Translations under genes and position numbers: made by a program
Shown: positions 3,885 through 7,755 of the stretch, one piece after another
Layout: the number at the start of each line of letters is the position of its first letter
How positions within the stretch are numbered: the first letter of the stretch is position 1
Notes under the pieces: model-generated
What the model was told of the DNA's origin: nothing
The model's database searches: none
What the model saw: only the letters and a program-made list of their open reading frames with translations
Origin: an uncultured Pseudomonadota bacterium
GTDB lineage: Bacteria > Pseudomonadota > Gammaproteobacteria > Burkholderiales > Rhodocyclaceae
NCBI GenBank assembly: GCA_903870055.1
Contig: CAIQBG010000007.1
Coordinates: 1-64,000 of the forward strand
DNA: 64,000 bases
Direction: 5' to 3'

Positions 3885-4235
3885 TTACAGGCTCCACAGA
3901 ATCTTGCTGGCCCAACCGGCATAACCGATCAGAACGGCGATAGTCAGGACATGCAGCGACAGGCGAATGCTGGTCGGCTTAACGTAGTCCATCCACAGGT
4001 CACGGATACCAATCCATGCGTGGTAGAAAAGGCTCAGGAAGAACAGGAAGGTCACAAACTTCATGAAGCCGTTGGCAAAAATAGCGCGCCAGGCATCGGC
4101 TGTACCCGGCTGAACAACCAGCACGGCAACCAAGAAGATGATGGTGTAGATGGCCATCAGCACGGCAGTTGCGCGCTGAGCAATCCAGGTAGTGAGGCCG
4201 TAGTGGGCCCCGACAACGTTACGTTTCATTACCAC
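3885..4235 (-). CDS. sdhD: Succinate dehydrogenase membrane anchor subunit SdhD
   Basis: SdhD, with SdhC, anchors the dehydrogenase in the inner membrane, binds heme b and forms the quinone site. The 116 residues contain three hydrophobic segments (about 18-40, 52-75 and 92-113). The motif HAWIGIRDLWMDYVKP supplies the expected heme histidine and the quinone-site Asp-Tyr pair. The start overlaps the end of sdhC by 7 bases, suggesting translational coupling. Confidence 0.94.
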   Translation of the reverse strand: MVMKRNVVGAHYGLTTWIAQRATAVLMAIYTIIFLVAVLVVQPGTADAWRAIFANGFMKFVTFLFFLSLFYHAWIGIRDLWMDYVKPTSIRLSLHVLTIAVLIGYAGWASKILWSL

Positions 4236-4621
4236 AGCAGAGTCCCCCCAATAACAGCGGTGAGCGTCAGGCTGACGATCAGAACCAGGCCGGCCGACTT
4301 ACGGGCAGACGGCAGATCAATGCCGATATGCCAGTCGAGCAGTAGAAAGCGGATGCCTGCGCAGAAGTGATGCAGATAAGCCCAGATCAAGCCCAGCAAA
4401 ACCAGCTTGCCAATCGGGTTTGCTACAACGGCCTGAACGCATTCAAAACCACCGTCACTCAGACTCCACTGGAACAGCGCCAGGATGAGCGGCAGACACA
4501 GAAATAGTCCGACGCCACTAAGGCGATGCAGGATGGAGACTTTGCCCGGCAGGGGCAAACGGATCGTTTTCAGGTCCAAATTCTTTGGACGCTGCTTCTT
4601 CTTGATGGCTAACTCTGTCAT
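4229..4621 (-). CDS. sdhC: Succinate dehydrogenase cytochrome b556 subunit SdhC
   Basis: SdhC is the first gene of the sdhCDAB operon and the larger heme-binding membrane anchor. The 130 residues contain RPKNLDLKTIRLPLPGKVSILHRLSGVG (described here by its key elements RPKNLDL, the HRLSG entry to helix 1) and the YLHHFCAGIRFLLLD heme-side motif, with three membrane helices. ATG at 4621 is chosen because AAGGA lies 7 bases upstream. An in-frame TTG six codons earlier has no such site. A TACAAT box at 4658-4663 fits a promoter for the operon. Confidence 0.94.
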   Translation of the reverse strand: MTELAIKKKQRPKNLDLKTIRLPLPGKVSILHRLSGVGLFLCLPLILALFQWSLSDGGFECVQAVVANPIGKLVLLGLIWAYLHHFCAGIRFLLLDWHIGIDLPSARKSAGLVLIVSLTLTAVIGGTLLW

Positions 4622-4657: not shown

Positions 4658-4663
4658 ATTGTA
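4658..4663 (-). promoter_or_regulatory. Candidate -10 box of the sdhCDAB operon
   Basis: On the minus strand TACAAT lies 37 bases before the sdhC start. An A-rich tract (4702-4725) sits farther upstream and could act as an UP element. No good -35 hexamer is visible, so an activator may be needed; the promoter is inferred. Confidence 0.4.
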
Positions 4664-4742
4664 GCCGAAGCCGGGAGCGATGGAATCCCCCCGGAGCCGG
4701 TTTTCTTAAGCTTTTTTTAATGGAATAGGCCGACGCTCAGAT

Positions 4743-4759
4743 TTGGTGCAGCGCACCAA
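4743..4759. promoter_or_regulatory. 17-bp perfect palindrome, candidate operator
   Basis: TTGGTGC-AGC-GCACCAA is a perfect dyad with 7-base arms. It lies 9 bases beyond the GntR stop codon and about 120 bases upstream of sdhC. Neither strand shows a T run after it, so a terminator role is unlikely. Size and symmetry fit a site for a dimeric GntR-type regulator. Confidence 0.45.
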
Positions 4760-4768
4760 TCCTGTGCT

Positions 4769-5515
4769 TCAACCCAACTCATTGAAATAGTGGTGATTTA
4801 CCGTGGAGTACAAACCGCGTCGCCATTCGGCGGCCCGATCACCGTAGGTGAAAGCAGTACGCTCGACACTTAATAGCGGGGTTCCCACGTCCAGATCGAG
4901 CAGTTGCGCTGCCATCGCGTCTGCTGCAACGGCCCGGATCTTCTCTTCGGCACGCACCATGCGCACGCCAAAGAGCGATTCAAAGAGTGTGTAGAGCGAG
5001 CGATCCGAGGTGCGCAGCTGCTCCAGGGTCAGATCCGGGAACAGATCTGCCGGCAGATAGATTTCATCAACCACCATGGGCTTAGCATCGAGGCGAAGAA
5101 TCCGGCGCAGCTGAATCACCGGATCGCCATAAGGAATTGAGAGCGCTTTGGCCACTTCCTGCCCAGCTCGCAGCGTCAGGCACTCCAGCGGCTCACTGCG
5201 TGAACGCGGCACACCGCCCTGGTCGGGCACCAGGCGCAGAAACCGGAAAAAAGCCCGTGGATCGGCATGGGTCGCTACAAAGGTGCCCTTCCCCTGGCGA
5301 CGCACCAGCAGGTTTTCGGCAGCTAATTCATCAATCGCACGGCGCACCGTGCCTTGGCTCACTTCGAATCGGGCGGCCAGATCCATTTCGCTAGGGATCA
5401 TTTCCCCGGGCTGCCATTCCTTGTCGGCGAGCGCTTGAACAATCAGGTCTTGTATCTGACGATAGAGTGGCCGAAACGCAGGTACTGAGGCCGGAACGGA
5501 TGTATATGAAGACAT
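4769..5515 (-). CDS. GntR-family (HutC/UTRA) transcriptional regulator
   Basis: The 248-residue product has an N-terminal winged helix (about 14-82), with PLYRQIQDLI, the recognition helix region SEMDLAARFEVSQGTVRRAIDEL and the wing RRQGKGTFV. A UTRA ligand-binding domain fills about 95-240. UTRA regulators usually sense a small metabolite and act as repressors. It lies between sdhC and the divergent mdh, so TCA-cycle genes are likely targets; this is inference from position. The 110-base spacer to mdh contains the mdh promoter, and a perfect palindrome follows its stop codon. The ligand is unknown. Confidence 0.9.
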   Translation of the reverse strand: MSSYTSVPASVPAFRPLYRQIQDLIVQALADKEWQPGEMIPSEMDLAARFEVSQGTVRRAIDELAAENLLVRRQGKGTFVATHADPRAFFRFLRLVPDQGGVPRSRSEPLECLTLRAGQEVAKALSIPYGDPVIQLRRILRLDAKPMVVDEIYLPADLFPDLTLEQLRTSDRSLYTLFESLFGVRMVRAEEKIRAVAADAMAAQLLDLDVGTPLLSVERTAFTYGDRAAEWRRGLYSTVNHHYFNELG

Positions 5516-5551
5516 GGGCGTATTTCAGCACAGTTTTGGTTGCTTTGCGCA

Positions 5552-5580
5552 TTGACAGCAACCCACCGCCCCTCTAACAT
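5552..5580 (+). promoter_or_regulatory. Sigma-70 promoter of mdh
   Basis: A consensus -35 TTGACA (5552-5557) is followed after 17 bases by TAACAT (5575-5580). The predicted transcript would start near 5587 with a leader of about 39 bases ending in a GAGGAG ribosome site before the mdh ATG. Confidence 0.7.
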
Positions 5581-5625: not shown

Positions 5626-6618
5626 ATGTCCAAAGCGCCTATGCGCGTCGCCATCACCGGCGCCGCTGGTCAGATCGGTTATAGCCTGCTGTTCCGTATT
5701 GCTTCCGGCGAAATGCTGGGCAAGGATCAGCCCGTCATTCTTCAACTGCTCGACCTGCCACAAGCCCAGAAGGCTGTTCAAGGCGTCATGATGGAGCTGG
5801 ATGACTGCGCCTTCCCGCTGCTGGCTGGCATGGTTGCTACCGATGACCCAAATGTTGCGTTCAAAGACGCCGACGTCTGCCTGCTGGTTGGCGCCCGTCC
5901 GCGCGGCCCAGGCATGGAACGTGCCGATCTACTGCAAGCCAACGGCGCTATCTTCACCGTTCAAGGTGAAGCCATTGCCAAGAATGCCAAAGAAGACGTC
6001 AAGGTTCTGGTCGTAGGCAACCCATGTAACACCAATGCCCTGATTGCTGGCGCTGCTGCCCGTAAGGTTGGCCGCACCAATCCAAACAACTACCACGGCA
6101 TGCTGCGTCTGGATCACAACCGCGCGCTGACCCAACTGGCCCAGAAGGCAAACCGTCCGGTTTCGTCTTTGCAGAAGCTGGTGGTCTGGGGTAACCACTC
6201 GCCATCGATGTACGCTGACTACCGCTTCTGTACCTCGAACGGTGACAGCGTCAAGAGCCTGATCAACGATGCAGCCTGGAACAACGATGTGTTCCTGCCA
6301 ACCGTCGGCAAGCGCGGCGCTGCCATTATTGATGCGCGCGGTCTGTCGTCGGCTGCTTCGGCTGCCAACGCTGCTATCGATCACATCCATGACTGGCACC
6401 TGGGTTCAGACCAATGGGTCACCATGGGCATTCCTGCACCAGCCGACAACGGCTACGGCATTCCGGAAGGCATCGTTTTCGGTTTCCCATGCGAGTGCAA
6501 GGGTGGCAAGTTCACTCTGATCAAGGGCCTGGAAGTCGATGAGTACTCGAAGGGCAAGATCGCTCTGACCCTGAAGGAACTGACCGACGAGAAGGAAGCT
6601 GTTGCTTCAATGCTGTAA
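5626..6618 (+). CDS. mdh: Malate dehydrogenase
   Basis: NAD-dependent malate dehydrogenase interconverts malate and oxaloacetate in the TCA cycle. The 330 residues start with the dinucleotide motif [15 protein letters not shown]. They contain the mobile loop [15 protein letters not shown], the substrate pair in RLDHNRA and the catalytic histidine in [10 protein letters not shown]. This is the cytosolic-like (type 2) branch common in betaproteobacteria. GAGGAG lies 8 bases upstream of the ATG, and a strong promoter and terminator make it a single transcription unit, divergent from the GntR gene. Confidence 0.97.
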
Positions 6619-6729: not shown

Positions 6730-7755
6730 ATGACGCAAGCCGCTACCAACCCCGCCCTGACACCTGACGACGTTTTGTTTCCCGGCGAGAAACCCTTTCC
6801 GATGTTACCGGCAGTAGACCACTACTGCGGTTCGGAAAAACTGATGAAAAAAGCGATGGCGATTCAAGCCGAGATCGCCGCAGAGTACGGCCCTCTGGCC
6901 ATGGATATCACCTGTGATTGCGAAGATGGCGCCGCAGCCGGTAACGAAAAGGCGCATGCCGAACTGTGCGTCGCCATGATCAACTCTAGTGACAACCAGT
7001 TTGGCCGTGTCGGCGCGCGCATTCATGACGTGACACACGATCACTGGAAAGACGATCTGGAAATTCTTGTGGGTGGCGCAGGCAATCGACTGCCATTCAT
7101 CACCTTGCCCAAACCACGTGGCATTGAAGACGTCCGCCTGTTTCTTAAAGAGCTGCGCGCTGTAGAACAACGTCACGGCATTGCTCGGCCCATCCCAGCG
7201 CACGTGCTCATCGAAACTCACGGTGCCCTAAATGAAGTGTGGGATATCGCTGCGCTTGACGGGATCGAATCGCTGGACTTCGGCCTGATGGATTTTGTTT
7301 CAGGTCACTTCGGCGCAATCCCCGGCAGCGCCATGAAGAGTCCCGGTCAGTTCGATCACCCACTCGTCCGTCGCGCCAAGCTGGAAATTTCCAGCGCTGC
7401 GCTCGGCCATGGCAAGGTCCCATCGCACAACGTAACAACGGAACTCTCCGATCTGGAATACATCCGTCGCGATGCCGATCGTGCGCGCCAAGAATTTGGC
7501 TATCTGCGCATGTGGAGTATTCACCCGGTGCAGATCCGCCCGATCCTTGATGCCATGAGCCCCGATTTCTCCGAAGTGCAAGACGCTGCCGAGATTGTGA
7601 GTGCGGCAGCCGATGCCGACTGGGGCCCGATCCGTCACAACGGCAAGTTGCAGGATCGCGCAGCCTACCGCTACTACTGGACGCTCCTCAAGCGTGCCCG
7701 TAGCACCGGGGTTCCCCTTCCTACTGGCATTGCCGAACGCTTTTTTACTGCTTGA
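6730..7755 (+). CDS. HpcH/HpaI aldolase / CitE-like CoA-ester lyase
   Basis: The 341-residue product belongs to the aldolase TIM-barrel family of citrate lyase beta subunits and malyl-CoA lyases, which cleave or form 3-hydroxyacyl-CoA esters with Mg. Visible elements are ITCDCEDGAAAGNE, LPKPRGIEDV, the metal-binding glutamate in HVLIETHGAL, SLDFGLMDFVSGHFG and SIHPVQIRPI near the C terminus. ATG at 6730 is preferred; an in-frame ATG at 6658 lies inside the mdh terminator. No citrate lyase alpha or gamma subunit is nearby, so it is probably a stand-alone enzyme. Position beside mdh suggests malyl-CoA-type chemistry, which is inference. Confidence 0.88.
   Translation: MTQAATNPALTPDDVLFPGEKPFPMLPAVDHYCGSEKLMKKAMAIQAEIAAEYGPLAMDITCDCEDGAAAGNEKAHAELCVAMINSSDNQFGRVGARIHDVTHDHWKDDLEILVGGAGNRLPFITLPKPRGIEDVRLFLKELRAVEQRHGIARPIPAHVLIETHGALNEVWDIAALDGIESLDFGLMDFVSGHFGAIPGSAMKSPGQFDHPLVRRAKLEISSAALGHGKVPSHNVTTELSDLEYIRRDADRARQEFGYLRMWSIHPVQIRPILDAMSPDFSEVQDAAEIVSAAADADWGPIRHNGKLQDRAAYRYYWTLLKRARSTGVPLPTGIAERFFTA

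Follow-up and report, generated by a model that had tools for sequence, protein, structure and literature searches.

A UTRA-type GntR gene lies between the divergent succinate dehydrogenase and malate dehydrogenase genes of this bacterium, and a perfect palindrome lies just past its stop codon. This arrangement raises the question of what the regulator binds, which genes it controls, and whether the palindrome is its operator, as the first-pass annotation had proposed. We addressed this question in the window, by which we mean the whole 64,000-nucleotide stretch of DNA that was analysed, and in related genomes. The annotation described both elements correctly: the gene occupies 4769-5515 on the minus strand, and the dyad lies at 4743-4759, beside the gntR stop codon on the sdhC side, with no T run after it. 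The start of the window falls within gltA, and the order of transcription on the minus strand is gntR, sdhC, sdhD, sdhA, sdhB, sdhE, gltA, with gntR in tandem with sdhC and mdh divergent from gntR on the plus strand. The features to which we refer below are these:

4229 to 4621, minus strand: sdhC, first gene of sdhCDAB-sdhE-gltA, with gltA reaching the window start.
4658 to 4685, minus strand: likely sdhC promoter, TTCCAT (4680-4685), 16 bp, TACAAT (4658-4663), from an alignment of five genomes of the genus.
4727 to 4775, minus strand: imperfect hairpin of 20 pairs that begins at the gntR stop-codon region and has the dyad as its tip (-26.1 kcal/mol, z -3.85).
4743 to 4759, no strand: dyad TTGGTGC-AGC-GCACCAA, a perfect fit to the PhaR 17-mer consensus and not the SdhR operator.
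4769 to 5515, minus strand: gntR/UTRA gene, probable SdhR orthologue, 248 aa (PF00392 and PF07702), whose orthologues adjoin mdh and sdhC in relatives.
5522 to 5527, minus strand: -10-like TGAAAT, 6 nt upstream of the ATG of gntR (predicted leaderless gntR mRNA).
5528 to 5551, no strand: position at which other genera have the SdhR operator, flanked by the promoters of gntR and mdh; the operator is absent here and in four of four congeners.
5552 to 5580, plus strand: mdh promoter, TTGACA-17-TAACAT, from a promoter scan.
5626 to 6618, plus strand: mdh, malate dehydrogenase (NF003916, 5.5e-157).

The hexamers of the likely sdhC promoter were picked by eye and were not reported by the promoter scan; a conserved A tract precedes them, in what is the conserved block of the gntR-sdhC spacer in the genus. 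We noted in addition that gntR looks leaderless (5513-5527), and that a loose -10-like pattern fits 24 of 30 loci, a count that stands without a control set. The gene after mdh (6730-7755) resembles the HpcH/HpaI aldolase family weakly (7.6e-6) and RipC at a score far under the NCBIfam cut-off (4.4e-9); possibly it encodes an uncharacterised acyl-CoA lyase adjoining mdh.

To which group of regulators does the gntR product belong? The protein carries a GntR winged helix (PF00392, 3.1e-21) and a UTRA domain (PF07702, 5.8e-34), both above cut-off. The closest solved chain is PDB 3cnv, a putative GntR-family regulator (162-residue chain; E 8.9e-43), although the match (residues 90-247) spans only the part C-terminal to the DNA-binding domain. 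A search for orthologues in 61 relatives gave matches in 56 genomes at E<=0.001 and in 52 at E<1e-30. For the neighbourhood, we compared 110 loci, 30 from the genomes of relatives and 80 more, ranging from Rhodocyclaceae to Burkholderia, Comamonas and Bordetella; two duplicates were dropped (L108 is identical to L016, and L129 to L031), leaving 108 distinct loci on which the operator and PhaR-like counts were redone. Divergent mdh flanks gntR in 104 of these 108 loci, and in 101 sdhC follows at a distance of no more than 400 bp.

In other genera of the family, the palindrome ATGTCTTATATAAGACAT is visible by eye in the spacer between gntR and mdh. We found it there with at most three mismatches in 96 of the 108 distinct loci, and with at most two in 88. 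The 12 loci with more than three mismatches comprise five of the window's own genus (8 to 9 mismatches), five with 4 or 5 mismatches, and two short spacers that are cut near contig ends (L014 and L161). The same palindrome was sought downstream of gntR, towards sdhC, and this candidate placement was rejected: it occurs in none of the 106 readable distinct loci, even when 5 mismatches are allowed.

The palindrome is also enriched genome-wide, with 89 sites at three or fewer mismatches in the 61 relatives, compared to 10 for the reversed pattern; across 300 genomes of the order, 128 have a site at two or fewer mismatches, and the table of matches holds three for the reversed pattern. Moreover, the site tracks the gene: it is present in 47 of the 52 genomes with an orthologue and in 2 of the 9 without (Fisher p=5.5e-5), where the line for an orthologue (E<1e-30) was drawn after the data had been seen and both sites in the orthologue-free genomes are at three mismatches. 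The five orthologue-bearing genomes that show no operator site include G001.

A full-text literature search found the operator letters in PMC4494728 (Suvorova 2015), a passage of which assigns the motif TCTTATGTCTTATATAAGACATAAGA to the HutC-subfamily regulator SdhR, citing Suvorova 2012. The window's gene is likewise of the HutC subfamily (GntR plus UTRA), and the motif as given in that passage contains the operator core ATGTCTTATATAAGACAT; since core and published motif agree, the gene belongs to this predicted and named group. We conclude that, judged by its protein and its neighbours, the gene is an SdhR orthologue, and we make no claim of autoregulation; the association with the sdh operon and mdh is a trait that we saw in the relatives and did not take from the SdhR literature. 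As the regulator has already been predicted and named in that passage, it is not new. A search for a named regulator of the gntR-sdh-mdh cluster returned passages of PMC5343134, PMC2864759 and PMC9765439, and none is named in these. The window's genus differs from the published SdhR in two respects: it lacks the gntR-mdh copy, and its copy at aceA has one decayed arm.

The first of these differences is uniform across the genus. All five genomes, with 8 to 9 mismatches to ATGTCTTATATAAGACAT, are missing the gntR-mdh operator, and we saw by eye no replacement SdhR operator in their gntR-mdh spacers. The DNA-recognition stretch of the regulator (VSQGTVR[KR]AIDE) is conserved in 14 aligned sequences and is the same in the window's genus as in other genera; thus, the missing copy can be accounted for without a shift in specificity. 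Most simply, the gntR-mdh copy would have been lost in this genus, and with it autoregulation and control of mdh through that copy would be gone.

We asked which genes adjoin the operator elsewhere, using 40 stretches around listed ATGTCTTATATAAGACAT sites together with loci from the site search, with genes placed by tblastn. In the window's own genome, the sole site at three or fewer mismatches lies on another contig (G000:C24:85256-85273), upstream of aceA (NF011645, 6.3e-225). It departs from the 18-base core at two positions, which fall within a single arm; the congeners' sites at aceA show 2 to 3 mismatches. Four of the five genomes of the genus have this aceA operator (the window's own, G002, G003 and G004), and we saw no operator site in G001, which is 87% complete. 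Overall, the operator is upstream of aceA in at least 26 loci from 26 genomes, including these four of the genus.

In relatives, the operator is beside acnB in at least seven loci (L075, L076, L079, L088, L091, L097 and L100), three of which (L075, L076 and L097) share it between divergent acnA and acnB, and an isocitrate-dehydrogenase-family gene adjoins it in at least one (L066). The sites at acnB (seven), acnA and the icd-family gene (one) suggest a regulon around the isocitrate node. Some matches that have no sensible target may be chance, for example that of L072 (G035:C5), an SdhR-like site with two mismatches upstream of a gene for a methyl-accepting chemotaxis protein. We also noted in L084 (1423-1920) an RraA-like gene (PF03737) directly 5' of aceA and after a gene named ClpB-like by eye.

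The geometry of the aceA promoters was read in 8 of the 26, with start positions inferred from the promoter hexamers. In seven of the eight, the centre of the operator is near -45, so that it abuts the -35 box; in the eighth (L071), the operator is about one helical turn nearer and lies over the -35 region. The four aceA promoters of the genus (L059, L060, L061 and L062) all have, in addition, a second palindrome that resembles TTGTTGC-N4-GCAACAA and overlaps the -35 box; it adjoins the SdhR operator, 18-35 bases past the operator start.

These results fit a circuit that we consider probable: SdhR would bind ATGTCTTATATAAGACAT, the genus would have lost the copy between gntR and mdh, the site at aceA would be its remaining operator, and the dyad beside gntR would stand outside the circuit. 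The regulator would act as a UTRA-type dimer on the palindrome, which in related Betaproteobacteria has a copy in the gntR-mdh spacer and further copies in front of aceA, acnB (with divergent acnA in some) or icd. This placement points to local control by SdhR of the section of the TCA and glyoxylate cycle between malate and isocitrate. The single operator that we recognise in the window's genome is in front of aceA (isocitrate lyase), with its centre near -45, against the inferred -35 box. Since this genus lacks the gntR-mdh copy but has the aceA copy, SdhR in this bacterium most likely controls the glyoxylate shunt rather than itself or mdh.

In the most likely mode of action, aceA would be repressed until a small anionic metabolite on the UTRA domain frees SdhR. 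Repression is the simplest reading, and the position of the operator over the -35 region in L071 suits it; activation is possible, as a position near -45 would suit an activator too. The sign of the regulation and the ligand, an anionic TCA-cycle metabolite, are what we infer, and the motif, its targets and the missing gntR-mdh copy come from the sequence. The earlier view is thus supported in part: a GntR regulator of the UTRA type that acts on genes of central carbon metabolism fits the data, and relatives do carry symmetric operators close to mdh and to aconitase genes. The choice of the dyad as operator is not supported.

If the operator of SdhR lies elsewhere, what is the dyad? The sequence TTGGTGCAGCGCACCAA at 4743-4759 lies nine bases past the gntR stop codon and about 120 bases before the likely sdhC start. 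It is the sole exact match to TTGGTGCNNNGCACCAA in the 2.05-Mb genome. As a mere palindrome, it is ordinary: the window holds eight perfect palindromes of its geometry (arms of 7 bp around a 3-bp spacer), and from 3 to 14 for each spacer length from 0 to 10, and the dyad pattern with at most three mismatches occurs 6 times, compared to 4.5 expected.

By the refuting condition set out with the first-pass annotation, conservation of the dyad near the same gene, the dyad fails in the genus: in the four congeners, no stretch between gntR and sdhC matches it with fewer than 3 to 5 mismatches. The pattern does reappear ahead of sdhC in a handful of distant relatives, exactly in L147 (Undibacterium) and with one mismatch in L149, L168 and L174. 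Of the 61 genomes, 4 have the exact pattern, each in a single copy, and none of these is a congener. In the alignment of the five genomes of the genus, the columns of the dyad are poorly conserved, and the A tract and the block GGGGG.TTCCA ... TACAAT are conserved. With no counterpart in the congeners, and with the operator elsewhere, the dyad is neither the SdhR operator nor an element of the genus.

One reading, to which we give slightly less than an even chance, is that the dyad has no function and is a palindrome that arose by chance or is drifting, in sequence under little constraint past the gntR stop codon. The ordinary number of palindromes of this geometry argues for it, as do the poorly conserved dyad columns next to the conserved sdhC promoter block. 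Against it, a perfect PhaR consensus is expected in the 144-bp spacer with a chance of about 3.5e-4 (calculated by hand, post hoc, from the density in the genome), and sdhC is a gene upstream of which PhaR-like sites recur.

In a second reading, PhaR would bind the dyad in front of sdhC and tie expression of succinate dehydrogenase to the PHB store. We hold this reading tentatively, as a real possibility that is clearly less likely than not; a lineage-specific PhaR site would be the most likely functional role of the dyad, if it has any. A passage of PMC12849132 gives the 17-bp PhaR palindrome deduced for Ralstonia eutropha as YTKNTGCRNYGCANMAR, to which the dyad has no mismatches, a fit that does set it apart from an ordinary palindrome. 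The dyad likewise fits the TGC-N3-GCA core that is reported for Herbaspirillum seropedicae PhbF in an excerpt of PMC3206438. It differs from these PhaR/PhbF/AniA systems in lacking the terminal GCAA of the full PhbF motif, as that excerpt gives it, and in its atypical position and conservation. Furthermore, Sinorhizobium meliloti PhaR shifts its own sdhC promoter, a shift entered as weak in the relevant part of PMC12542648.

The genome itself encodes phaR (G000:C37) and has five perfect matches to YTKNTGCRNYGCANMAR in 2.05 Mb, compared to two for the reversed pattern. One of the five is the dyad, one is about 100 bp upstream of a phasin gene, two are within coding frames, and one is near a typA-like gene. 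Three of the four phasin genes of this genome have an upstream PhaR site, one perfect and two with one mismatch, and these last two genes look like near-duplicates of each other. Across the 61 genomes, the PhaR consensus occurs 278 times, compared to 41 for the reversed pattern. As an observation apart, the palindrome near the typA-like gene, CTGCTGCGCCGCAGCAG (G000:C15:31850-31866; L230), fits the PhaR consensus perfectly and lies about 50 bases upstream of that gene, which was named by eye.

PhaR-like sites also recur at sdhC. Of 100 distinct loci, 16 have a site with at most one mismatch in the sdhC upstream region, compared to 0.1 on average for 60 permuted palindromes; in control stretches, such sites are found in 2 of 104 gntR-mdh spacers and, within the longer coding stretches of gntR, in 5 of 104. 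Since the loci are related, the counts cannot be taken as independent. By group, split by locus order and sequence titles, the sites are in one of five loci of the window's genus, in 12 of 39 loci outside the Rhodocyclaceae, and in only 3 of 56 distinct loci of other Rhodocyclaceae, a rarity that speaks against a PhaR role here. So does the lack of a counterpart of the dyad in the four congeners, three of which bear PhaR and whose best matches to the consensus have two mismatches. Relative to sdhC, moreover, the dyad is placed at about -135, well ahead of the likely promoter, compared to -19 to -90 in most other loci, and PhaR was picked as the candidate after the dyad had been seen.

A third reading, in which the dyad would form the tip of an RNA hairpin and the hairpin would terminate or protect the gntR mRNA, we consider unlikely. 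The 20-pair hairpin does span the gntR stop codon, with the energy and z value listed above, but no T run follows it, and the corresponding congener hairpins have z values of -2.1, -1.3, 0.8 and -0.4. We rejected an intrinsic terminator, for which the hairpin is present, the T run is absent and the terminator scan reports no site, and we likewise rejected a conserved hairpin after gntR, as the strength of the fold is not kept in congeners. Finally, the proposal that the GntR regulator uses the dyad as its operator was not borne out and is very improbable: although the dyad adjoins gntR, has a suitable symmetry and resembles palindromes found ahead of sdhC in a few remote relatives, conservation speaks strongly against it, with its exact pattern so rare and a different, family-wide operator, ATGTCTTATATAAGACAT, that sits between gntR and mdh and at aceA, acnB and icd and fits the regulator.

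The PhaR reading of the dyad touches the SdhR circuit at aceA as well. A PhaR-like TGC-N3-GCA at the aceA -35 box is found in 12 of 26 loci in all, other genera included, and 6 of the 26 are within one mismatch of the PhaR consensus, compared to a mean of 0.04 for permuted palindromes; the -35 hexamer TTGCTG by itself raises this count. These sites raise the idea, speculative and in our judgment rather doubtful, that in Betaproteobacteria SdhR and the PHB-granule sensor PhaR meet on aceA and sdhC, with the polymer store gating both and SdhR in the window's genus reduced to a dedicated switch of aceA. In a literature search on PhaR with the glyoxylate shunt or succinate dehydrogenase, no title among the matches listed concerned that link, and we do not claim novelty for it.

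The assignment of the operator is thus corrected: the site relevant to this regulator is the one at aceA, not the dyad beside gntR. The genus would offer a clean case of a local regulator that is without the autoregulatory operator of its relatives and has kept a remote target. If SdhR and PhaR do converge, the window's dyad would be one of the recurrent PhaR-like sites at sdhC, and the PHB store would gate the glyoxylate shunt and succinate dehydrogenase alongside the metabolite signal of SdhR. The possible PhaR link would in this way join carbon storage to sdh and aceA.
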